Positions 13,611 to 52,519 of a DNA stretch of 64,000 nucleotides are shown here, in pieces (positions within the stretch are counted from its first letter, which is position 1; each line of letters opens with the position of its first letter). A model generated the notes under the pieces. It saw only the letters and a list, made by a program, of their open reading frames with translations. It was not told where the DNA came from and searched no databases. Origin of the DNA: Acidaminococcus fermentans DSM 20731 (GTDB lineage Bacteria; Bacillota; Negativicutes; Acidaminococcales; Acidaminococcaceae); the NCBI RefSeq assembly GCF_000025305.1, contig NC_013740.1:372001-436000 (forward strand), read 5' to 3'. Made by a program: the position numbers and the translations under genes.

Positions 13611-13614
13611 GACC

Positions 13615-13699
13615 CGTAGGGGCTGCACGCCGGGCAGCCCGTCTGGATGCCGGTTGCCGGTGCACAGGGCGGGACGCCGGGCTTGCGCCCCCTACGGTT
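13615..13699. repeat. BIME-like palindromic repeat, copy 1
   Basis: An inverted pair: the plus strand starts CGTAGGGGCTGCACGCCGGG and the minus strand, from 13699, starts CCGTAGGGGGCGCAAGCCC. Both arms begin with GTAGGGG and then form a GC-rich hairpin, the layout of REP/BIME repeats. A second copy is at 44301-44384. Confidence 0.75.
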
Positions 13700-17121: not shown

Positions 17122-17160
17122 AAAGAGGGGGCTGTTGCATGAGCAACAGCCCCCTCTTTT
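17121..17160. terminator. Bidirectional terminator, 18-bp stem
   Basis: Arms 17121-17138 and 17143-17160 are exact complements (AAAAGAGGGGGCTGTTGC) with loop ATGA. It serves the HxlR gene and the convergent gene ending at 17161. Confidence 0.92.
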
Positions 17161-34826: not shown

Positions 34827-36371
34827 ATGGTTGCAAAAAACGCAGCAAAGCAAACGTGGGTGGACCGTTTCCTGAATACCATCGAAACGGTATGCAACAA
34901 ACTGCCGCCGCCCGCCATCCTTTTCGTGGTCTTATTCCTCATTACTGCTGTGATTGGTGCCGGATTGACCAGTACGGGCTTCAGCCTGACAAACCCGGCA
35001 ACGGGGAAAGCCGTTGTCTCTCAGAATCTGTTCTCCAAAGCGGGGGTCCAGTGGCTTTTGACCAACCTGGTCAAGAACTTTACCGGATTCGCTCCTCTGG
35101 GTCTGGTAATCACCATGACCATGGCCATCGGGTTCTGTGAAGAATCCGGTCTGCTGGTGGCCATGCTGAGACGGTCTCTGAAAAATGTGCCGCCCGGTGT
35201 GGTTCCGTATCTGATCGCTTTTCTGGGAACCTGCGGGAACATCGCATCCGATACGGCCATGATCGTCATTCCTCCTCTGGCAGCCATTGTGTACATCGGG
35301 GTCAAGAAACACCCGGTAGTGGGCATGATGGTGGGGTATGCCGGGGCACAGGCCGGGTTCACCGCCAACCTGATGGTGGCCGGTACTGACTCCCTGCTCC
35401 AGGGCCTGACCAACCAGGCCATCGATGCGTTCCTGGGAGCGCCCGGGCTGTTTGCTGTGGATGTTACCTGCAACTGGTACTTCCTGTTTGTATCCACCTT
35501 TCTCTGCGGTGCCGTCATCGGCTGGGTTTCCATCCACATCATCGAACCCCGGTTCCCGAAATATGAAGGATCCGAAGAAGAATCCCTGATGGAAGAAGTG
35601 ACTCCCCTGGAAATCAAGGGGCTGCACAATGCCGGCCTGGCCTGCCTGGTCTACATTGCCATCGTTATCGTGGGCTTCAAGACCCAGGTCCTGTCCAAGG
35701 ACGGTGTGACCGTGGTGGGATCCCTGATGCTGAAAGGCCTGATCCCGCTGCTGTTCTTTCTGTTCAGTATTGCGGGTATTGTATATGGGAAGACCACCGG
35801 AAAGTTCACCAATGTGAAGAGCATCAACTCCGCCATGGTGAAACAGATGAGCGGAATGGGTGCCTATGTGGTGTTCTGCTTCTTCTGCGGCCAGTTCCAG
35901 GGTCTGTTCAACTGGACCAAACTGGGCACCCTGCTGGCCATCAGCGGGGCAAACTTCCTGAAGGGTGTGGGCTTCACCGGGATTCCCATGTGTATCGCCT
36001 TCATCCTGATCTCCGCCATCGTGAACATCTTCGTGTCTTCCGGTTCTGCCAAGTGGGCCATTTTCGCCCCCATCTTCGTTCCCATGTTCATGCTGCTGGG
36101 TTACCATCCTGGCTTTACCCAGCTGCTGTATCGGTTGGGTGACTCTCCGGGCAACTGCTTCACGCCCATGAGCCCCTACATCTGGATGATCCTCAGTGTG
36201 GCTCAGGAAAAATACATGCCGGACTGCGCCATCGGGACCCTGATTTCCAACATGATCCCCATTGCCGTTGTCCTGCAGATCGCCTGGATCATCTTCCTGG
36301 TGATCTGGATGATGCTGGGTCTGCCTTTCGGACCGGGCGTGGGCATTGCCCTGCCGGCCGGAGTGCTGTAA
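34827..36371 (+). CDS. AbgT-family transporter, paralogue 1
   Basis: 514 residues with about 11-12 membrane segments and two re-entrant regions. Family motifs include FTGFAPLGLVITMTMAIGFCEESGL, CGNIASDTAMIVIPPLAA, GTDSLLQGLTNQ and YRLGDSPGNCFTPMSPY. AbgT members import p-aminobenzoyl-glutamate (folate breakdown) or, as MtrF/YdaH, expel sulfonamide-type antimetabolites with cation coupling. No AbgA/AbgB hydrolase lies nearby. A near-identical paralogue follows on the same strand, so this is a tandem duplication. Substrate not assigned. Confidence 0.88.
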   Translation: MVAKNAAKQTWVDRFLNTIETVCNKLPPPAILFVVLFLITAVIGAGLTSTGFSLTNPATGKAVVSQNLFSKAGVQWLLTNLVKNFTGFAPLGLVITMTMAIGFCEESGLLVAMLRRSLKNVPPGVVPYLIAFLGTCGNIASDTAMIVIPPLAAIVYIGVKKHPVVGMMVGYAGAQAGFTANLMVAGTDSLLQGLTNQAIDAFLGAPGLFAVDVTCNWYFLFVSTFLCGAVIGWVSIHIIEPRFPKYEGSEEESLMEEVTPLEIKGLHNAGLACLVYIAIVIVGFKTQVLSKDGVTVVGSLMLKGLIPLLFFLFSIAGIVYGKTTGKFTNVKSINSAMVKQMSGMGAYVVFCFFCGQFQGLFNWTKLGTLLAISGANFLKGVGFTGIPMCIAFILISAIVNIFVSSGSAKWAIFAPIFVPMFMLLGYHPGFTQLLYRLGDSPGNCFTPMSPYIWMILSVAQEKYMPDCAIGTLISNMIPIAVVLQIAWIIFLVIWMMLGLPFGPGVGIALPAGVL

Positions 36372-36938: not shown

Positions 36939-38483
36939 ATGGAAACAAAGAACGCAACAAAAGGCAGTCTGCTGGACCGTTTTCTCAATACCGTGGAACG
37001 GGTCTGCAACCGGCTGCCGCCCCCGGCCATCCTGTTCTGCATCCTGTTTGTGATCACAGCCGTGGTGGGGGCCATCTGCACCCAGGCGGGATTTGCTCTG
37101 GAAAACCCCGCTTCCCACAAAATCGTCACCTCCCAGAACTTTTTCACCAAGGCCGGCATCCAATGGCTGCTGACCACCCTGGTGAAGAACTTTACCGGGT
37201 TTGCTCCTTTGGGCCTGGTGATTACCATGACCCTGGCCATCGGGTTCTGTGAAGAATCCGGCATGCTGGCGGCTCTGCTCCGCCGGTGCATGAAAGGGGT
37301 ACCGCCTTCCCTGGTGCCCTTCATCGTGGCGTTCCTGGGGGTCTGCGGCAACATCGCCTCCGATACGGCCATGGTGGTGATCCCGCCCCTGGCGGCCGTT
37401 GCTTACATCGGGGTGCGGAAACATCCTGTAGTGGGGATGATGGTGGGCTTTGCCGGGGCAGAAGCCGGCTTCGGGGCCAACCTGATGATCGCCGGTACTG
37501 ATTCCCTGCTCCAGGGGCTGACCAACCAGGCCATTGACGGGTTCTTCGGCAAGGCCGGGGTCTTTGCGGTGGATGTAACCTGCAACTGGTACTTCATGTT
37601 CGCATCCACCTTCCTCTGTGCCCTGATCATCGCCCTGGTATCCATCAAGATCGTGGAACCCCGTTTCGGGGTCTATGACGGACCGGGGGCCGATGAAGAA
37701 CTGGGAGAGGTGAAGCCCATCGAAGTGAAGGGGCTGAACCGGGCCGCTCTTGTGGTGGTGATTTATATCCTGATCCTGGCTGCCGGGTTCTTCACCGGTG
37801 TGCTGTCCAAGGACGGGCACACTTTTGTGGGTTCCCCGCTGCTGAAAGGCCTGATTCCCCTGCTGTTCGTCATGTTCAGCCTGGCCGGGCTCACCTATGG
37901 CTTCACCACCGGTTCCTTCACCTGCATCAAAGATGTGAACAAGGCCATGGTCCATCAGATGAGCGGCATGGGCGCCTTTGTGGTGTTCTGCTTCTTCTGC
38001 GGCCAGTTCCAGGCCCTGTTCAGCTGGACCCATCTGGGGACCCTGCTGGCCATCGGAGGCGCTGACTTCCTGAAGAACGTGGGCTTTACCGGACTGCCCA
38101 TGTGCGTGCTGTTTGTGCTGATTACCAGCCTGGTGAATATCTTCATGTCCTCCGGGTCCGCCAAGTGGGCCATCTTCGCCCCCATTTTCATCCCCATGTT
38201 CATGCTGCTGGGGTATCATCCGGGCTTTACCCAGCTGCTGTACCGGCTGGGGGATTCTCCCACCAACTGCTTTACGCCCATGAACCCCTATCTGTGGATG
38301 ATCCTCAGTGTGGCCCAGGAAAAATACATGCCCAAGGCCGCCATCGGGACCCTGGTCTCCAACCTGATCCCCATTGCCGTCTGCCTGCAGATCGTCTGGA
38401 TCATCTTCCTGATTGTCTGGATGACCCTGGGCCTGCCCATCGGACCGGGAGTGGAAATGACTCTGCCCGCAGGGGTGCTGTAA
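36939..38483 (+). CDS. AbgT-family transporter, paralogue 2
   Basis: 514 residues, the same length as paralogue 1 and, by eye, about three quarters identical (not computed). The same motifs are kept: CGNIASDTAMVVIPPLAA, GTDSLLQGLTNQ, YRLGDSPTNCFTPMNPY. AAGGAGG lies seven bases upstream of the ATG. Differences cluster at the N-terminus and in the cytoplasmic loop near residues 245-262. It has its own promoter, so the two may be expressed under different conditions. Substrate unknown. Confidence 0.88.
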   Translation: METKNATKGSLLDRFLNTVERVCNRLPPPAILFCILFVITAVVGAICTQAGFALENPASHKIVTSQNFFTKAGIQWLLTTLVKNFTGFAPLGLVITMTLAIGFCEESGMLAALLRRCMKGVPPSLVPFIVAFLGVCGNIASDTAMVVIPPLAAVAYIGVRKHPVVGMMVGFAGAEAGFGANLMIAGTDSLLQGLTNQAIDGFFGKAGVFAVDVTCNWYFMFASTFLCALIIALVSIKIVEPRFGVYDGPGADEELGEVKPIEVKGLNRAALVVVIYILILAAGFFTGVLSKDGHTFVGSPLLKGLIPLLFVMFSLAGLTYGFTTGSFTCIKDVNKAMVHQMSGMGAFVVFCFFCGQFQALFSWTHLGTLLAIGGADFLKNVGFTGLPMCVLFVLITSLVNIFMSSGSAKWAIFAPIFIPMFMLLGYHPGFTQLLYRLGDSPTNCFTPMNPYLWMILSVAQEKYMPKAAIGTLVSNLIPIAVCLQIVWIIFLIVWMTLGLPIGPGVEMTLPAGVL

Positions 38484-38488
38484 GTGTG

Positions 38489-38516
38489 CAGGGCTGTTGC
38501 ATATGCAACAGCCCTG
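38489..38516 (+). terminator. Hairpin after abgT paralogue 2
   Basis: Perfect 14-bp stem (arm CAGGGCTGTTGCAT) without a T-run. Same GGGCTGTTGC core as other terminators here. Confidence 0.6.
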
Positions 38517-38597
38517 TCAACGGCCAAATGAAGCCAGCAAAGCTGGCTTTGAACAACGATGAAACGATTTCGGAGAATCATTGGTTTTCCCATTTCG

Positions 38598-38620
38598 AAA
38601 TCAATTTGCAAAATTGATTT
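38598..38620. repeat. AT palindrome, copy 2
   Basis: AAATCAATTT-GCA-AAATTGATTT, followed by a heptad array, as at 13712-13735. Confidence 0.7.
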
Positions 38621-38627
38621 CCAACGG

Positions 38628-38648
38628 CTGCTGACCGCTGACTGAGAA
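38628..38648 (+). repeat. Heptad array 5 (short)
   Basis: CTGCTGA, CCGCTGA and a degenerate CTGAGAA, followed by the hairpin at 38649-38677. Confidence 0.55.
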
Positions 38649-38677
38649 GGAGCTGTGAAAAAATTATCCACAGCGCC
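38649..38677. terminator. Hairpin of the repeat module
   Basis: GGAGCTGTG (38649-38657) with CACAGCGCC (38669-38677), one mismatch, then TTTATTT. The same hairpin type recurs at 42142-42177 and 52390-52422. Confidence 0.6.
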
Positions 38678-38710
38678 TTTATTTCGCTTGCGTCAGCTGG
38701 CTTCCATCGG

Positions 38711-38738
38711 CTAGTGACTAGAGACTAGTGACTAGTGA
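38711..38738 (+). repeat. Heptad array 6 (four 7-bp units)
   Basis: Three units CTAGTGA and one CTAGAGA (second), preceded by GGCTTCCATCGG and followed by the hairpin at 38740-38769. All units fit CNNNNGA. Confidence 0.85.
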
Positions 38739-38739
38739 C

Positions 38740-38769
38740 GGGGTGTGAAAAAGCATTTTTTCACACCCC
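38740..38769 (+). terminator. Terminator hairpin of the repeat module
   Basis: GGGGTGTGAAAAA (38740-38752) with 38757-38769, followed by CCTTTTTT. It insulates the ecf operon promoter directly downstream. Confidence 0.8.
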
Positions 38770-38778
38770 CCTTTTTTA

Positions 38779-38808
38779 TTGACTGATTCCAGTAAACGAA
38801 GCTATAAT
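38779..38808 (+). promoter_or_regulatory. ecf-truA operon promoter
   Basis: TTGACT (38779-38784), 18-base spacer, TATAAT (38803-38808). Confidence 0.82.
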
Positions 38809-38828
38809 TTAACTTTATGGAGGATGTT

Positions 38829-39665
38829 ATGGAACCGATCATTGAAACGAAAAATCTGACCCATACCTATGTGGATGGGCAAAATCAGGAAATGACGGCA
38901 CTCCAGGGAATCGACCTGTCCATTGCTCCCGGCGAATTTGTGGCTATTATCGGGACCAACGGCAGTGGAAAATCCACCCTGGCCCGTCATTTCAACGGTC
39001 TCCTGACCCCCACCAGCGGTCATTGCCTGGTGGGCGGCCTGGATACCGCCATAGAAGAAAATCTCTGGCCCGTGCGCCAGACCGTGGGCATGGTGTTCCA
39101 GAACCCGGACAACCAGATCGTGGCAGCCATTGTGGAGGAAGATGTGGCTTTCGGGCTGGAGAACATCGGTGTCCCCGGGCCGGAAATCCGTCCCCGGGTG
39201 GAAAAAGCCCTGGCGGCCGTGGATATGCTGGATTATGCCAAACGGGCCCCTCACCGGCTGTCCGGAGGCCAGAAACAGCGGGTGGCCATTGCCGGGGTGC
39301 TGGCCCTGGAACCCCGGTGCATCGTCTTTGACGAGCCCACCGCCATGCTGGATCCCAAGGGACGGAAGGAAATCGTCTCCACGGTGCTGAAGCTGAACAA
39401 AGAAAAGCATATCACCATTGTGTACATTACCCATAAAATGGAAGAGGCCATCCTGGCCGACCGGATCATCGCCATGGAAAAAGGGAAGATCGTCCTGGAA
39501 GGGACACCCAAGGAAGTATTCACCCAGGTGGACCGGATCCGGGGCCTGGGGCTGGAATGCCCCCTGGCGGCGGAAGTGGCAGATGCCCTGGACAAACAGG
39601 GCCACCGGCTGCCGCCCATCATTACCCATAAGGAGTTGTGTGAAGCATTATGTCCATCCAAGTAG
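38829..39665 (+). CDS. ecfA1: ECF transporter ATPase subunit EcfA1
   Basis: 278 residues from ATG 38829 (GGAGG five bases upstream; the ATG at 38817 has no ribosome site). Walker A GTNGSGKST, Q-loop VFQNPDNQIVA, signature LSGGQKQRV, Walker B CIVFDEPTAMLD. One of two ATPases of the energy-coupling module used by group II ECF vitamin/metal importers. The VFQNPDNQ motif is typical of EcfA1. It overlaps ecfA2 by 16 bases. Confidence 0.93.
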   Translation: MEPIIETKNLTHTYVDGQNQEMTALQGIDLSIAPGEFVAIIGTNGSGKSTLARHFNGLLTPTSGHCLVGGLDTAIEENLWPVRQTVGMVFQNPDNQIVAAIVEEDVAFGLENIGVPGPEIRPRVEKALAAVDMLDYAKRAPHRLSGGQKQRVAIAGVLALEPRCIVFDEPTAMLDPKGRKEIVSTVLKLNKEKHITIVYITHKMEEAILADRIIAMEKGKIVLEGTPKEVFTQVDRIRGLGLECPLAAEVADALDKQGHRLPPIITHKELCEALCPSK

Positions 39666-40513
39666 ACCATATCTCCTATACCTATATGACCCATACCAGC
39701 CTGGAAAAGAAGGCCCTGGATGATGTGAGCTTCACCCTGGAAAAAGGGGAGTTCGTGGCTCTCATCGGCCATACCGGCAGCGGCAAATCCACCCTGGCGG
39801 AGCATCTCAACGGACTGCTCCATCCCATGGCGGGGAAGGTGCTGGTGGACGGGGTGGACCTGGCGGCAAAGACTCCGGAAGCCAAGACGGCCCGGAACCG
39901 GGTGGGTATGGTGTTCCAGTATCCGGAACACCAGCTGTTTGCGGAAACCATCTACGAAGACATCGCTTTCGGGCCCCGGAACCAGGGAAAGTCCGAACCG
40001 GAGGTGGAAGAAGCGGTGCGCAGCGCTATGGAATTCGTGGACCTGGATTTCGACACCTTCGCCCAGCGGTCACCCTTCCAGCTTTCCGGGGGGCAGATGC
40101 GCCGGGTGGCCATTGCCGGGGTGGTGGCCATGGAACCGGATTACCTGATCATGGACGAACCCAGTGCCGGGCTGGATCCCATCAGCCGGGACAGCATCTT
40201 CGGCCAGTTGCGGAAAATCTTCGAGAAACGGAAAATGGGGGTGCTGCTGATTACCCACAGCATGGAAGAAGCCGCCCAGTACGCCAGCCGGCTCCTGGTC
40301 ATGAGTGACAGCCGGCTCCAGCTGGACGGTCCGGCCCGGGAGCTGTTCACCCATGAACGGGAAAAACTGGAATCCCTTTCCGTGGACGTGCCGGAAAGCG
40401 TGAAACTGGCGGAAGAACTCCGGAACCAGGGCCTGCCCATTGAAGGGACGCCCCTCACCAAAGAAGAACTGATCCGGGCCATTGACAAAGCAAAGGGGTG
40501 GAAAACATGCTGA
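39650..40513 (+). CDS. ecfA2: ECF transporter ATPase subunit EcfA2
   Basis: 287 residues. Walker A GHTGSGKST, Q-loop VFQYPEHQLFAETIYEDIAFGPRN, signature LSGGQMRRV, Walker B YLIMDEPSAGLD. The 'QYPEHQLF' motif distinguishes EcfA2 from EcfA1. It overlaps both neighbours, so the three subunits are translated together. Confidence 0.93.
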   Translation: MSIQVDHISYTYMTHTSLEKKALDDVSFTLEKGEFVALIGHTGSGKSTLAEHLNGLLHPMAGKVLVDGVDLAAKTPEAKTARNRVGMVFQYPEHQLFAETIYEDIAFGPRNQGKSEPEVEEAVRSAMEFVDLDFDTFAQRSPFQLSGGQMRRVAIAGVVAMEPDYLIMDEPSAGLDPISRDSIFGQLRKIFEKRKMGVLLITHSMEEAAQYASRLLVMSDSRLQLDGPARELFTHEREKLESLSVDVPESVKLAEELRNQGLPIEGTPLTKEELIRAIDKAKGWKTC

Positions 40514-41313
40514 CAGACATTACCCTGGGACAGTACTATCCCGGGAATTCCTGCATCCACCGGCTGGATCCCCGGACCAAGATCCTGGCGGTGCTGTTCT
40601 ATATGGTCATGGTATTCCTGGCCAATTCGCCCCTTTCCTACGGGATCCTCATCGGGTTCATCGTGCTGGGGGCTGCCCTGGCCAAACTGCCGGCAGGACT
40701 GCTGCTCCGGTCCATCAAGCCCCTGTGGATCATCATCCTGCTGACCATGGTGATCCATTTTGTCACGGATCCGGGGGAAGCCCTGTGGCACTGGAAGTTC
40801 ATCACCGTCACCAGAGAAGGGATCGTGCTGGGGGTGAAGATGTCCCTGCGGCTGGTCCTGCTGCTCCTGGTGTCTTCCCTGATGACCTTCACCACGTCTC
40901 CCATTGTGCTGACCGACGGCATTGAATCCCTGCTCCGTCCCTTCAAAAAAATCGGGGTGCCGGCCCACGAACTGGCCATGATGATGACCATCGCCCTCCG
41001 GTTCATTCCCACCCTGCTGGAGGAAACAGACCGGATCATGAAGGCCCAGATGTCCCGGGGGGCGGATTTTTCCTCCGGGAACATCATGAAGCGGGCCAAA
41101 AACATGCTGCCCATCCTGATTCCCCTGTTCATCTCCTCCTTCCGCCGGGCGGACGAACTGGCTCTGGCCATGGAAGCCCGGTGCTACCGGGGCGGGGAAG
41201 GACGGACCCGGATGCATGAACTGGTCTACGGCAAAGCCGATGCCCTGACCGGGCTGGTGATGCTGGCCCTGTTTGTCCTGCTGGCTTTCCTGCGCTGGGG
41301 GATCCCCGCATGA
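40507..41313 (+). CDS. ecfT: ECF transporter transmembrane subunit EcfT
   Basis: 268 residues from ATG 40507. Membrane helices at the N-terminus (HRLDPRTKILAVLFYMVMVFLAN) and C-terminus, with the two coupling-helix motifs near SRGADF and ARCYRGGEGRT that contact the ATPases. No S component is coded in this operon, so the module must be shared by separate S components, for example the one at 52.5 kb. The stop overlaps truA by four bases. Confidence 0.92.
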   Translation: MLTDITLGQYYPGNSCIHRLDPRTKILAVLFYMVMVFLANSPLSYGILIGFIVLGAALAKLPAGLLLRSIKPLWIIILLTMVIHFVTDPGEALWHWKFITVTREGIVLGVKMSLRLVLLLLVSSLMTFTTSPIVLTDGIESLLRPFKKIGVPAHELAMMMTIALRFIPTLLEETDRIMKAQMSRGADFSSGNIMKRAKNMLPILIPLFISSFRRADELALAMEARCYRGGEGRTRMHELVYGKADALTGLVMLALFVLLAFLRWGIPA

Positions 41314-42047
41314 TCCGGACCATTAAAGCCACAGTGGCCTATGACGGAACCCGTTACCAGGGGTTCCAGCGGCAGAAAAACGGGGTGGGGGTCCAGCAGG
41401 TGCTGGAAAAGGCCCTGACGGAAGTGTTGAAGGAACCCATCCTGATCAAGGCCGCCGGACGGACCGATGCAGGGGTCCACGCCCTGGGCCAGGTGATTTC
41501 CTTTGCCACCAGTTCCCGGATCCCGCCGGAAAACTACCGCCGGGCACTGGAACCCCATCTGCCGCCGGACATTGCCATCCGGGAAGCGGAAGTGGTCCGG
41601 GATGATTTCCACGCCCGGTTCGACGCGGTGGACAAGACCTACCAGTATAAAATCTATTATTCCCCCCTGCCGGATCCCACCCAGCGGAACACTACCTGGG
41701 AGATCCGGGAGAAACTGGATGTGGAGGCCATGAACCGGGCGGCGGCCCTGCTCCTGGGAAAGCATGACTTCACCTCCTTCAAGAACCAGGGAAGCCAGGA
41801 TACCTCGCCGGTGCGGACCCTGACCGAAGCCCATTGGGTCCAGGACGGAAATCTGTACACCTTCACCATTACCGGGGACGGGTTTCTGTACCGGATGGTC
41901 CGGAACATCGTGGGCTGCCTGGTCCGGGTGGGCACGGGCCAGTGGAATGAAGAAGATTTCGCCCGGGTGATGGCGGCCAAAAACCGGAAACAGGCCGGCA
42001 TGGCTGCCCCGGCCCAGGGGCTGTATCTGATGCATGTGAGTTATTGA
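41310..42047 (+). CDS. truA: tRNA pseudouridine synthase A (positions 38-40)
   Basis: 245 residues. The catalytic Asp53 lies in GRTDAGVHALGQV; YDGTRYQGFQRQKN at the start and YRMVRNIVGCLVRVG near the end are family signatures. It modifies uridines 38-40 in the anticodon arm. The position downstream of ecfA1-A2-T is the standard Firmicutes arrangement. Confidence 0.96.
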   Translation: MIRTIKATVAYDGTRYQGFQRQKNGVGVQQVLEKALTEVLKEPILIKAAGRTDAGVHALGQVISFATSSRIPPENYRRALEPHLPPDIAIREAEVVRDDFHARFDAVDKTYQYKIYYSPLPDPTQRNTTWEIREKLDVEAMNRAAALLLGKHDFTSFKNQGSQDTSPVRTLTEAHWVQDGNLYTFTITGDGFLYRMVRNIVGCLVRVGTGQWNEEDFARVMAAKNRKQAGMAAPAQGLYLMHVSY

Positions 42048-42052
42048 GACAG

Positions 42053-42082
42053 GGGGTGTGAAATAATGCTTTTTCACACCCC
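42053..42082. terminator. Terminator hairpin of the repeat module (inverted copy)
   Basis: GGGGTGTGAAA (42053-42063) with 42072-42082, directly after truA. It is the reverse-oriented copy of the hairpin at 38740. Confidence 0.65.
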
Positions 42083-42083
42083 G

Positions 42084-42111
42084 TCACTAGTCACTAGTCA
42101 ATAGTCACTAG
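42084..42111 (-). repeat. Heptad array 7 (four 7-bp units)
   Basis: Minus-strand units: CTAGTGA three times and one CTATTGA (second), all CNNNNGA, preceded by GGCTTCCATCAG. It is the inverted counterpart of array 6, so the two bracket the ecf-truA operon. Confidence 0.85.
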
Positions 42112-42141
42112 CTGATGGAAGCCAGCTAACGCTGGCGAAAT

Positions 42142-42177
42142 AAAGGCGCTGTGGATGATTTTTTCACAGCGCCTTTT
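42142..42177 (+). terminator. Outer hairpin of the inverted repeat module
   Basis: AAAGGCGCTGTG (42142-42153) with CACAGCGCCTTTT (42165-42177), ending in TTTT. Confidence 0.8.
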
Positions 42178-42287
42178 GCTATTCCTTTAATCTATAGGAG
42201 TCCATAACTTCAGTCTACTTGTGTTATAACAGCAGATAGGATAGACTAATAGAAAACTATTCTATGAAAAAGAAGGGAAGTTATCGG

Positions 42288-44231
42288 ATGAAAGAAGTGT
42301 GGAATCAAAAACTGGCTGCCGCCGTGCTGACGGCCGTACTGGCCGGCAGTACGTCTGTGGTGTGGGCCGCAGAACAGGAACAGGCAGAAAAACCTGCCCA
42401 GGAAATTGTGATCACGGCCAACCGGCTGAAGAACCAGAAGGTGGATACGCCGGCGGATGTAACCGTGATCACCAGCCAGCAGATCTCCGACCGGGGCTAC
42501 CGGACGGTCATCGATGCCCTGGAGGATGTGCCAGGGGCACGGGTCTTGGATGCCAGTGGTCCGGCTTTTGAACGGCGGGTGATTCTGAACGGGGACGACC
42601 GGGTGGTCGTGATGGTGGATGGCCGCCGGATCAACTACAGCATGGGCTCCACCAATGGGAAATCCACTTTTGACGCCAATACCCTTCCTGGGGTCAGCAT
42701 GATCGAACGGATCGAAGTGGTGAAAGGCGGGGCTTCCACCCTGTACGGGGCTGATGCGGTGGGAGGTGTCATCAACATCATCACCAAGACTCCGGAAGAG
42801 ACCACCGGCACAGTCCATGTGGGTTATGGCTCCTGGGGTACCCAGGACTTGGGACTTTCTTTCGGCGGAAAGCAGGATAAGACCGGCTTCCAGGTAGGAA
42901 TCAACCGGAACAAGGCTTCTTACCTGAAATACAAAGACACCAATGGGGATACCAAAAGATGGGACGGACAGTCCAACTACACCCAGGATTCCATTTCCCT
43001 GAAACTGACCCAGGATTTTACCAAAAGCGACGGCTTGACGGTGAACTACGATTACTCCAATCTGGACGGGAATTTCCGTTCCGGACTGTATACCTATGAT
43101 TCTTATTCAAAAGCGTATTATCCCAATACGGACCAGCGTCATGCAACGAAAAAGACCAACAATGTGGGAATCCGGTATGAATGGAATCGGGAGGCCGGGA
43201 ATGCCGGATATGTGCAGGCTTACCGAAATTACTATGGATATACCAATTTCGGGACATTCTCTTATAATGATGGTGACATGAATGAAACAGACTGGGGACT
43301 GGAAGGACAGCAGAATTTCGTCCTCAGCGATACCAATACTTTGGTGGCAGGTCTGGAATACCGGAATGCCAAAGTGGATCATGTGGGGATCTATACTGAT
43401 GGCAAATACAACAACAAAGCCGTGTTCCTCCAGGATCAGTGGAAATTCGCTCCCACCTGGCAGCTGAATACCGGCGTCCGGTATGATGACCACAGCAAGG
43501 CCGGGAACCGGACCACCGGCAGCGTGGCGGTGAACAAGAAATTCAGCAAGGACAGCAATGCCTATATCAGCTGGAACTCCGTATTCAGAGCACCTACCAC
43601 TGATGATCTGTTCTATCGGGATTCCTATGATTTCATGCGGGGCAATGAAAATCTGAAACCGGAAACCGGGAATGTATGGAGCGCCGGATACAACTTCAAA
43701 ATCGATTCAAAAACCGACGTTGGTATTACCGGTTTCTACAGCCAGCTGAACGATGCCATCCGGTGGGCTGATTATGGGTATTACTGGCAGGCAGAAAACA
43801 TCAACAAGCAGAAGAAACGGGGCATGAGCCTGTCCGTCACCCATCACCTGAACAAACTGTGGGAACTGAATGCCGCCTACACCTATGTGAAGGTGGAAGA
43901 CAACAGGAATGACGGAAAGGGCTATGTGAAGGATGTGAATTATGCCCCCAATTACTACCAGGCCGGGGTCCGCTACCACGACACCAAGTGGAACGTGTCC
44001 CTGACGGGTCGGGGCGGTTCCGGGCTGTCCGGCGAAAAGTATGGGGAACACAATTACTTCACCCTGGACCTGGCTGCCCGGTACAAGTTCACCCACAACT
44101 GGACCGGCTTTGCCAACTTCTACAACCTGAACAATGCAGCCTACGCGGAATACAGCGGTGTATTCAAAAACCAGGACATCTATCCCATGCCCGGCCGGCG
44201 GATCATCGTAGGGGCGGAATACTCCTTCTGA
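42288..44231 (+). CDS. TonB-dependent outer-membrane receptor
   Basis: 647 residues from ATG 42288, which has an AAGGGA site nine bases upstream (an ATG at 42264 lacks one). A signal peptide (cleavage after VVWAA) is followed by a TonB box-like EIVITANR, a plug domain (VIDALEDVPGARV, STLYGADAVGGVINIITK) and a 22-strand barrel ending in the aromatic C-terminal EYSF. The size and plug resemble colicin I/siderophore or BtuB-type receptors. It uses TonB energy (a TonB system lies at 4-6 kb) to import an iron complex or cobalamin. It sits alone, between repeat elements. The ligand cannot be told. Confidence 0.92.
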   Translation: MKEVWNQKLAAAVLTAVLAGSTSVVWAAEQEQAEKPAQEIVITANRLKNQKVDTPADVTVITSQQISDRGYRTVIDALEDVPGARVLDASGPAFERRVILNGDDRVVVMVDGRRINYSMGSTNGKSTFDANTLPGVSMIERIEVVKGGASTLYGADAVGGVINIITKTPEETTGTVHVGYGSWGTQDLGLSFGGKQDKTGFQVGINRNKASYLKYKDTNGDTKRWDGQSNYTQDSISLKLTQDFTKSDGLTVNYDYSNLDGNFRSGLYTYDSYSKAYYPNTDQRHATKKTNNVGIRYEWNREAGNAGYVQAYRNYYGYTNFGTFSYNDGDMNETDWGLEGQQNFVLSDTNTLVAGLEYRNAKVDHVGIYTDGKYNNKAVFLQDQWKFAPTWQLNTGVRYDDHSKAGNRTTGSVAVNKKFSKDSNAYISWNSVFRAPTTDDLFYRDSYDFMRGNENLKPETGNVWSAGYNFKIDSKTDVGITGFYSQLNDAIRWADYGYYWQAENINKQKKRGMSLSVTHHLNKLWELNAAYTYVKVEDNRNDGKGYVKDVNYAPNYYQAGVRYHDTKWNVSLTGRGGSGLSGEKYGEHNYFTLDLAARYKFTHNWTGFANFYNLNNAAYAEYSGVFKNQDIYPMPGRRIIVGAEYSF

Positions 44232-44300
44232 TTGCAGGAAAAAGGGAAGAGTGCAGAGTGAAGAACGGGACGGCTGGAATCCGATACCCCGTTGCGATCC

Positions 44301-44384
44301 TGTAGGGGCTGCACGCCGGGCAGCCCGCCAAACCGCTGCTTGTCCGTGCATCCAGCGGGCCGCCGGGCCTGCGGCCCCTGCGGT
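44301..44384. repeat. BIME-like palindromic repeat, copy 2
   Basis: It starts TGTAGGGGCTGCACGCCGGG and ends in the inverted arm CGCCGGGCCTGCGGCCCC. It is homologous to copy 1 at 13615-13699, with a diverged central loop. The flanking 44232-44300 holds nothing else I recognise. Confidence 0.7.
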
Positions 44385-44480
44385 TCGATATGAGTTTTTC
44401 AAGGCGCACCGCGCCGTATCTGGCTTCTTGCAATCCCATACAGATATGATATAATATTTCCGGAACAACATCATAAGTTT

Positions 44481-44587
44481 TGTCTTTGGGGAGGGGTGCG
44501 ATTCCCTACCGGCGGTAAAGTCCGCGAGCCTTGGCACGAATCGGTGAAATTCCGATACCGACAGTACAGTCTGGATGAGAAAAGACA
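44481..44587 (+). promoter_or_regulatory. FMN riboswitch (RFN element)
   Basis: The closing stem TGTCTTT (44481-44487) pairs with AAAGACA (44581-44587). Inside are the conserved blocks GGGGAGGGTG-like, CCCTACCGGCGGTAAAG, CGCGAGCC and GATACCGACAGTACAGTC followed by GGATG. It senses FMN and controls the riboflavin operon downstream. Confidence 0.95.
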
Positions 44588-44606
44588 GGTTCGGAAAAGT
44601 ATATTT

Positions 44607-50633: not shown

Positions 50634-50642
50634 CTCCACTGG

Positions 50643-50670
50643 CTAGAGACTGGGGACTAGTGACTAGAGA
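50643..50670 (+). repeat. Heptad array 8 (four 7-bp units)
   Basis: CTAGAGA, CTGGGGA, CTAGTGA, CTAGAGA, all CNNNNGA, preceded by CCACTGG and followed by the terminator at 50673. Confidence 0.85.
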
Positions 50671-50672
50671 CT

Positions 50673-50708
50673 AAAAAGGGGCTGTTGCCCAGGCAACAGC
50701 CCCTTTTT
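50673..50708. terminator. Terminator of recA-recX
   Basis: AAAAAGGGGCTGTTGCC with its complement to 50708, ending in TTTTT; the A-run makes it bidirectional. Same GGGGCTGTTGC core as at 2306, 17121 and 20407. Confidence 0.88.
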
Positions 50709-50853: not shown

Positions 50854-52383
50854 ATGAGTGTAGTTATTGCTGTAGTCCTTTGTTTATTAGGCGTTGGAGG
50901 CGGATATCTGGCTCGTAAAAACGTAGCAGAAGGCAAAATCGGTTCCGCAGAAGAGACTGCCAAACAGATCCTGGAAGAAGCAAAAAAAGCAGGCGATGCC
51001 AAAAAGAAGGAAGCGCTGCTGGAAGCCAAGGAAGAAATCCACCGTCTCCGGTCCGAAATGGAACGGGAAAACAAGGAAAGAAGAGCAGAGCTCAGTAAAA
51101 ATGAACGGCGTCTGGTCCAGAAGGAAGAAAACGTCGACAAAAAGATGGATGCTTATGAAAAGAAGGAAGAAAAACTTCTGGAACAAAGCAACCGCCTGCG
51201 GGAAGCCCAGGCCAAAGTCGATGCCCTGTATGACCAGCAGATGGTGGAACTGGAACGGATTTCCGGGCTCACCAGCGAAGAAGCCAAACAGGAATTGCTG
51301 GACAATGTGCGGGAAGAAGTCAAACATGACAAAGCCCGCCTGATCAAGGAAATGGAACAGGAAGCCAAGGATACCGCGGACCAGAAGGCCCGGGAAATCA
51401 TCTCTCTGGCCATCCAGCGGTGTGCGGCGGATCAGGTGGCGGAAACCACGGTTACGGTAGTGCCCCTGCCCAACGATGAAATGAAGGGCCGGATCATCGG
51501 CCGGGAAGGCCGGAACATCCGGACCCTGGAAACCCTGACCGGCATCGACCTGATCATCGACGATACGCCGGAAGCGGTGATCATTTCCGGCTTCGACCCT
51601 GTGCGCCGGGAAGTGGCCCGGATCGCCCTGGAGAAGCTGATCAACGACGGCCGGATCCATCCGGCCAGGATCGAGGAAATGGTGGAAAAAGCCCAGAAGG
51701 AACTGGATCAGAAGATCAAGGAAGCCGGGGAACAGGCCACCTTCGAGGTGGGTGTCCATGGCATCCATCCGGAACTGATCAAGCTGCTGGGCCGGCTGAA
51801 ATACCGGACCAGCTACGGGCAGAATGTGCTGAAGCATTCCACGGAAGTGGCTCATCTGGCCGGCCTGATGGCCGCCGAACTGGGCGTGGACGTGAACTCG
51901 GCCAAGCGGGCCGGGCTGCTCCACGACATCGGCAAGGCCGTGGACCACGAAGTGGAAGGGTCCCATGTGGACCTGGGGGCGGAAGTGGCCAAACGGTATC
52001 ACGAATCCGATATCGTGATCAACACCATCATGTCCCACCACGGGGACTGCGAACCCACGTCCGTCCAGGCCGTGCTGGTTTCTGCCGCCGACGCCATTTC
52101 GGCTGCCCGTCCGGGAGCCCGTCGGGAAACCCTGGAAACGTATCTGAAACGGCTGACACGATTGGAAGAAATTGCCGAATCCTTCGACGGCGTGGAAAAA
52201 TGCTATGCCGTCCAGGCCGGTCGGGAAATCCGGATCATGGTGAAACCGGAAAAGGTGGACGACGATGCCGCCACTATCCTGGCCCACGATGTGGCCAAGA
52301 AGATCGAAGAGGATATGGAATATCCGGGACAGATCAAAGTGGTCATCGTACGGGAAACCAGAGCGGTGGATTACGCAAAGTAA
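50854..52383 (+). CDS. rny: Ribonuclease Y
   Basis: 509 residues from ATG 50854. An N-terminal membrane helix ([18 protein letters not shown]), a long coiled coil to about residue 200, a KH domain ([15 protein letters not shown]) and an HD domain ([21 protein letters not shown]). Membrane-anchored endonuclease that starts mRNA decay in Firmicutes. Start uncertain: AGGAGG (50831-50836) is 17 bases from this ATG and overlaps a GTG at 50836, while ATC (50842) or ATA (50845) would have ideal spacing. Confidence 0.95.
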
Positions 52384-52389
52384 GACAAA

Positions 52390-52422
52390 AAGGCGCTGTG
52401 AAAAAATCATTCACAGCGCCTT
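52390..52422. terminator. rny terminator, part of the repeat module
   Basis: AAGGCGCTGTGA (52390-52401) with TCACAGCGCCTT (52411-52422), perfect 12-bp stem. The same hairpin type as at 38649 and 42142. Confidence 0.75.
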
Positions 52423-52453
52423 AAATTTGCCAGCGTAAGCTGGCTTCCATCGG

Positions 52454-52481
52454 CTGGAGACTAGTGACTAGAGACTAGTGA
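52454..52481 (+). repeat. Heptad array 9 (four 7-bp units)
   Basis: CTGGAGA, CTAGTGA, CTAGAGA, CTAGTGA, preceded by GGCTTCCATCGG and followed by the hairpin at 52483. All fit CNNNNGA. Confidence 0.85.
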
Positions 52482-52482
52482 C

Positions 52483-52519
52483 GGGGATGTGAAAATCATT
52501 TTTTCACATCCCCTTTTTT
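52483..52519. terminator. Terminator hairpin of the repeat module
   Basis: GGGGATGTGAAAA (52483-52495) with 52501-52513, then TTTTTT. Close relative of the hairpin at 38740. It separates rny from the convergent ECF gene. Confidence 0.8.

Follow-up and report, generated by a model that had tools for sequence, protein, structure and literature searches.

Introduction

In Streptococcus pneumoniae, the BOX, RUP and SPRITE families are short intergenic repeats that are enriched between convergent genes and that spread in a lineage burst; as the available parts of the source describe them, BOX elements are modular and vary in how many inner units they carry, and SPRITE elements are terminator-like and lie near gene 3′ ends (PMC3049150). 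Arrays of one fixed heptamer, TAACTGA, occur in Beggiatoaceae, Cyanobacteria and Bacteroidetes and, in the excerpts available of that account, lie mostly just upstream of start codons (PMC4679880). Stem-loop families derived from DNA uptake words are a further case of repeated intergenic stem-loops, which according to the accessible sections of the source may serve as terminators (PMC2267715). Here we analysed a module of hairpins and GAC heptads in a stretch of 64,000 nt from Acidaminococcus fermentans DSM 20731 (contig NC_013740.1, positions 372,001 to 436,000; the whole stretch is called the window), where two inverted copies bracket the ecfA1-ecfA2-ecfT-truA operon and a third copy lies next to rny. 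We give a probability of about 0.7 to the reading that the module is a two-way terminator cassette that has multiplied recently, arrived separately beside the operon and spread by replacement.

Architecture of the module

A repeat search of the window recovered all three copies that a sequence-only reading of this DNA had reported, at 38647-38776 on the plus strand, 42052-42175 on the minus strand and 52390-52519 on the plus strand. The coordinates in that reading were accurate to about 2 nt, except that the right edge of copy 1 had been placed 7 nt too short. The search paired inverted arms at 38647-38770 and 42052-42175 (124 nt, 93% identity ungapped), direct arms at 38647-38776 and 52390-52519 (130 nt, 84% identity) and inverted arms at 42051-42188 and 52377-52514 (138 nt, 84% identity), and the likeness among the three copies is far beyond chance.

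The consensus is a unit of about 125 bp with hairpin 1, a short stretch containing an inner hairpin, an array of GAC heptads and hairpin 2. Alignment of the copies gave GGCGCTGTGAAAAAATCATCCACAGCGCC as the consensus of hairpin 1 and GGGGTGTGAAAAAGCATTTTTTCACACCCC as that of hairpin 2. The period-7 arrays of the window copies lie at 38711-38739 (4.1 units), 42083-42111 (4.1 units) and 52459-52482 (3.4 units). The number of GACs at period 7 ranged from 1 to 6 per copy, with four in 45 of 71 copies, and the outer hairpins were constant. Two subfamilies were distinguished, A (TTTATTTCGC) and B (TTAAATTTGC); the copy upstream of the ecf genes belongs to A and the rny copy to B. The window copies are as follows.

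38647..38776, plus strand: module copy 1, located between the transporter gene and ecfA1 and belonging to the GCTTGCG sub-lineage of type A (hairpin 1 38647-38679; heptads 38711-38739; hairpin 2 38740-38769; T-tract 38772-38777)
42052..42175, minus strand: module copy 2, inverted and 3′ of truA, type A in its older GCCAGCG form (hairpin 2 42052-42082; heptads 42083-42111; hairpin 1 42143-42175)
52390..52519, plus strand: module copy 3, type B, between the convergent rny and a minus-strand gene (hairpin 1 52390-52422; inner hairpin 52429-52444; heptads 52459-52482; hairpin 2 52483-52513)

At gathering scores no Rfam family matched the module, and the sole Rfam match in the region 38450-38820 was at chance level (E 0.87) and outside the module. 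No published description of the module was found in the open-access library searched.

Distribution among genomes

The window sits in a single contig of 2,329,769 bp (A. fermentans, G000). The module was searched for in nine genomes of the genus, this one included, and in a family-wide set of 59 genomes that contains the nine, with one genome per species; copy counts from both searches are lower bounds. Copies were counted as distinct at 100 bp or more and entered the alignment (A1) at 115 bp or more, and L101 and L104, duplicates of L029 and L015, were dropped.

A. fermentans gave at least 50 module matches at E≤0.001 and at least 31 distinct copies of 100 bp or more (19 plus, 12 minus). Its sister species (G008) gave at least 49 matches and at least 39 copies of that length (14 plus, 25 minus). 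G004 held one near-complete copy together with fragments (at least 30 matches), and partial hits were found in G003 (at least 13 partial matches) and G006 (one short match), among the matches listed. There were no module matches in G001, G002, G005 and G007, and no near-full-length module in the other six genomes of the genus or in the 50 further family genomes, among the matches listed; beyond the genus, the only matches listed were two in G049, which covered 25-26 nt of a hairpin end. A blastn search for a plasmid or phage carrier returned nothing at E≤0.01, and the exact 19-nt core had no match in viral contigs. In contigs of 84,980 species, from which near records of the window were possibly omitted, the exact core matched once, in Pseudomonas, which by our estimate is about chance level (about 2 expected). 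Within L095 (G000:C1:1568608-1568840), a GACTAGT/A array far longer than those of the modules was seen, with module parts on both sides.

Gene-end placement and predicted termination

Gene context was taken from open reading frame (ORF) calls based on codon usage for 70 copies, 31 in A. fermentans and 39 in the sister species. The stop codon of a called gene faced the module in all 70, at a distance of at most 20 nt in 55. Three copies at contig or locus edges were left out of the classification, and the remaining 67 comprised 40 convergent, 27 tandem and no divergent placements. When gaps of at least 30 nt in the window were called in the same way (n=31), 4 were convergent, one of them holding the rny module, 21 were tandem and 6 divergent; module placement differed from this both for convergent (Fisher P 1e-5) and for divergent (P 7e-4) junctions. 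Both stops lay within 20 nt in 24 of the 40 convergent cases, where the module filled the junction from stop to stop.

Folded alone, copy 1 was far stabler than shuffled sequences on both strands (z -6.0 and -5.3). RNAalifold of the 70 aligned copies gave 27 column pairs, four of them with compensatory change, and the stems were kept. The flanks of 67 copies were 81% A over 5 nt on the left and 67% T over 6 nt on the right, so plus transcripts have their T-tract after hairpin 2, at the right end of the module, and minus transcripts have theirs after hairpin 1, at its left end. In a simple terminator scan both strands of copy 3 were called but only the plus strand of copy 1, and on these strands the copies have the GC-rich hairpin followed by a T-tract of an intrinsic (Rho-independent) terminator. 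With T-tracts at the two outer edges, a transcript that enters on either side would terminate on reaching the opposite edge. From these features we infer that the module is a predicted two-way terminator that would act at the 3′ ends of genes, chiefly of convergent ones.

Probable recent spread

The flanks of 33 A. fermentans entries (31 distinct copies) were compared with those of the 39 copies in the sister species. Five sites were shared, four with the module in the same orientation (L002/L085, L014/L058, L022/L089 and L023/L090) and the fifth being L018/L065. Matches on one flank only were not counted as shared (L004/L081, L010/L035, L013/L068 and L020/L062), and neither were short one-sided matches of L023 to L031 and L066. 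The GCTTGCG variant was present in 19 of the 31 A. fermentans copies and in none of the 39 copies of the sister species. Only L002 among these 19 lies at a shared site; the other 18 have no counterpart at the same site in the sister species, which points to recent spread. The multiplication of the module looks recent in both species. The sequence-only reading had allowed, as its third possibility, that the module spreads by itself into 3′ ends, and this was supported by the copy number, the placement at gene ends, the relatedness of the copies and the unshared sites.

At three of the five shared sites the divergence between the two species changed in a step at or near the module. At L018/L065, 400 bp on one side were 98-100% identical and 500 bp on the other 78-89%. 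The figures at L022/L089 were 96-99% (300 bp) and 80-93%, and at L014/L058 identity was about 92% on one side and, from 200 bp outward, near 100% on the other. No change at the module was seen at L002/L085 and L023/L090. These steps suggest that the module may mark boundaries of interspecies recombination. The genome has a ComEC-family gene, which permits but does not demonstrate natural transformation.

Possible replacement at orthologous junctions

Eight A. fermentans sites were searched by their flanks in G008, G004 and G003. Six had adjacent orthologous junctions, L008 had one with an extra ORF between, and L016 had none. All ten orthologous junctions that were parsed lacked the module core and had stems of 12 to 21 bp, each exceeding every stem found in 40 base shuffles of its junction. 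The G008 junction at L006 carries just one hairpin, whose arms are those of hairpin 1 in the module. A hairpin-heptad-hairpin plan of unrelated sequence was seen by eye at L006 in G003, L021 in G004 and L025 in G003, with the gene ends conserved, and a strict array finder (at least three units) passed L021 in G004 and G008 and L025 in G008. Site L021 shows three different hairpin-and-heptad arrangements in three species (G000, G004 and G008) with conserved genes on both sides. In A. fermentans, modules also adjoin older GAC/GTC arrays of other flavours (e.g. L007, L027, L024, L028 and L094).

The junction hairpins in relatives, together with the modules that abut older arrays, fit one cassette overwriting another. 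The cassettes thus appear to replace one another, and spread would proceed by replacement of existing terminators, through copy-and-replace recombination via A-tract and stem homology and not by clean insertion. In L069 and L082 an outer arm resembles that of the other hairpin, which is suggestive only. An excess of changes in the outer hairpin arms was considered as a sign of breakpoints and dropped, since outer and inner arms vary about equally by eye.

Heptads and stems outside the module

Four consecutive GACNNNN units, counted on both strands, gave 139 hits in A. fermentans (long arrays being counted repeatedly), 80 in G008, 71 in G004 and 56 in G003, and the reversed control pattern gave 1 to 5 hits in these four genomes. 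The other five genomes of the genus had 0-8 hits and the 50 other family genomes 0-1; the reversed pattern is found instead in G005, G006, G007 and, in another genus, in G040 and G041. Perfect stems of the form GGCTGTTGC-N4-GCAACAGCC, with many different loops, numbered 30 in A. fermentans, 31 in G003, 61 in G004 and 4 in G008, with 0-1 in the other five and none for the control. The repeated GACNNNN arrays and the repeated stems indicate that the terminators of this branch come as repeated families.

A wider scheme can be offered tentatively, and we consider it somewhat doubtful: in one Acidaminococcus branch, gene 3′ ends would draw on a shared pool of hairpin-GACNNNN heptads-hairpin cassettes that overwrite each other by homology with no transposase, with species-specific amplification and with the ends of exchanged tracts marked.

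In the window, hairpins with the recurring GGCTGTTGC/GCAACAGCC stem and varied loops were seen at 17130, 20409, 38492 and 50680, and two features combine such a hairpin with heptads.

38491..38640, no strand assigned: additional hairpin of the CTGTTGC stem kind (38492-38513) with GAC heptads, just 5′ of copy 1
50635..50706, no strand assigned: heptads joined to a CTGTTGC-stem hairpin, with the rest of the module absent

The first of these is probably older 3′-end material. G003 has about eight pairs of inverted GAC heptad arrays 180-216 bp apart (e.g. C4:662625-662857 and 2299733-2299964), apparently another repeat family of that species.

Replacement or transposition

Several observations weigh against a terminator cassette that spreads by replacement. 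The covariation term from RNAalifold was small (-0.47). The terminator scan called copy 2, which has a weaker T-tract, on neither strand, and hairpin 1 of copy 1 has a mismatch and no clear T-tract. GAC arrays occur outside the module too. Siting between convergent genes is also shown by harmless parasites, and the context call for L028 depends on an ORF that overlaps the module by 35 nt. The unshared sites could be explained by losses, or by flanking genes that are absent in the sister species. At L018/L065, the two species carry the module at one and the same convergent junction but oppositely oriented, which also fits transposition; the module itself may have flipped there, or it may have arrived twice. 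The ends of the module are imperfect inverted repeats (16/18 by eye from the consensus), which again fits transposition, and each end doubles as one arm of its own hairpin.

These ends, together with the high copy number, the near-identity and both orientations of the copies and the turnover of sites between species, are what would be expected of a non-autonomous element like a miniature inverted-repeat transposable element (MITE), moved by an unseen transposase and found at 3′ ends where insertion is tolerated. However, none of 67 copies had direct repeats of at least 5 nt on its two sides, as a target duplication would leave, and the mean longest repeat spanning the module in these copies was 2.45 nt compared to 2.32 nt for shuffled pairings (P 0.04). 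No larger element with these ends was found among the 50 own-genome matches listed, no survey of insertion sequences (IS) having been made, and the 24 convergent junctions filled from stop to stop leave no room for an older terminator. We regard a MITE-like origin as unlikely, though it keeps some weight.

BIME-like repeats mobilised by a RAYT (Y1 transposase) are a very improbable alternative to replacement: A. fermentans has one Y1-family gene, but this lies beside a TnpB-like ORF as in IS605 (TnpB-like by our reading) and has no module nearby, and G004 carries a near-full copy but has no Y1 matches. RAYT or IS200/605 as the mover was rejected on the ground that the single Y1 gene adjoins the TnpB-like ORF.

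The ecf-truA operon

The operon and its surroundings are as follows.

38817..42047, plus strand: ecfA1-ecfA2-ecfT-truA operon, in the same place and orientation in relatives
38779..38808, plus strand: promoter-like site of ecfA1 (11/12 match), one base past the copy 1 T-tract
36939..38483, plus strand: upstream transporter gene, AbgT family (best model TIGR00819, below cut-off)
42264..44231, plus strand: downstream TonB-dependent receptor gene (best model TIGR01779, below cut-off)

NCBIfam models above cut-off identified the two ECF ATPases (TIGR04520 and TIGR04521), TruA (TIGR00071) and RNase Y (TIGR03319); the T component, ecfT, matched CbiQ (TIGR02454) below cut-off. The T-tract of copy 1 ends at 38777, one base ahead of a -35-like hexamer at 38779. 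From this position directly ahead of the ecfA1 promoter-like site, copy 1 plausibly protects the operon against read-through from upstream.

The operon was in one piece in all nine genomes of the genus. The order and relative orientation of transporter, ecfA1, ecfA2, ecfT, truA and TonB receptor were the same in G000, G001, G003, G004, G005 (where the transporter match is about 4 kb away) and G008; in G002, G006 and G007 the operon was whole, but the two neighbours could not both be traced. Seven of the nine genomes have no module copy at the operon. Other hairpins take the place of the modules on both sides in G003 and G004 and on the upstream side only in G008 and G001, and no hairpin was visible 3′ of truA in G001. 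In the sister species the site of copy 2, 3′ of truA, also holds a module, oriented like copy 2, and none lies upstream of the operon. Copies 1 and 2 are 90% identical by gapped alignment, and at least 48 of the 70 other copies are closer to copy 1, and likewise to copy 2, than these two are to each other.

Random layouts of 31 copies placed an inverted neighbour pair within 3.6 kb in 51% of cases; A. fermentans has three close inverted pairs compared to 0.69 expected (P about 0.03). This excess is mild and is not particular to the ecf-truA operon. Among the 39 listed copies of the sister species there was one inverted close pair (1.6 kb) and one direct pair (2.8 kb). The copies that flank the operon would have arrived separately, with the bracketing due to chance, and the bracketing indeed looks like a coincidence.

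The sequence-only reading had proposed that the operon could be inverted by recombination between the modules. Two inverted copies 3.4 kb apart with 93% identity (ungapped, 124 nt) would suit such a flip, but A. fermentans and the five relatives whose flanking genes could both be traced showed a single orientation, both orientations were never seen, and inverted pairs at this spacing are expected in half of random layouts. The promoter-like site of the operon lies inside the segment, so inversion would switch nothing. An invertible segment was rejected on the synteny across species and on the relatedness of the copies, and retains hardly any probability. Its other proposal, that the operon and the two modules moved as a composite unit, is scarcely credible and was likewise rejected, since the bracketing and the three close inverted pairs that might favour a composite transposon stand against an operon that is present in all nine genomes, at the same location in relatives without modules and with neighbours conserved in five relatives, a unit found at a single place, two flanking copies of different lineages and a sister species that has only the truA-side copy.

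Some further features were noted around the operon. The genes at 34827-36371 and 36939-38483 are tandem paralogous AbgT-type transporter genes, the second of which precedes copy 1. An FMN riboswitch lies at 44478-44590, ahead of riboflavin genes. An 87-bp intergenic direct repeat with 78% identity (13613-13699 and 44299-44385) is another dispersed element.

Comparison with known systems

What had appeared to be an operon switch becomes a case of terminators that behave like selfish repeats, and the case cautions that copies of a repeat should be counted across the whole genome before its inverted placement beside an operon is put forward as an invertible switch. If replacement is true, terminators spread and swap as units, which bears on the insulation of convergent genes and on the persistence of repeats in compact genomes.

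As in the arrays of TAACTGA, many intergenic arrays share a 7-nt period. In contrast to those arrays, as the accessible part of their description presents them, the module has GAC every 7 nt with varied filling, set between terminator hairpins at gene ends. REP and BIME elements are intergenic palindromes, paired and present in tens to hundreds of copies, and the module resembles them in this as far as the available sections go (PMC2267715, PMC12306157). It differs in that no linked RAYT was found, and in that its T-tracts make terminators, which RepRanger sets apart from REPs in the text available. Unlike the stem-loops built from uptake words, in the portion of the source at hand, GGCTGTTGC in the window is confined to hairpins with no single copies, and its identity as a DNA uptake word was rejected on this finding.

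The module is closest in character to BOX, RUP and SPRITE as the consulted parts of their description portray them: it too is intergenic, enriched between convergent genes, variable in its inner units and terminator-like, and it spread in a lineage burst. The BOX type of plan, with fixed outer parts and variable inner units, is found in the module, which is a likeness of plan. Against the same partial description, the module differs in its own sequence and plan, with two outward terminator-like hairpins and heptads between them, in often fitting from stop to stop, and in signs of replacement instead of insertion. By this comparison the module may be placed in kind beside BOX and SPRITE, its plan being new and its spread possibly a matter of replacement.

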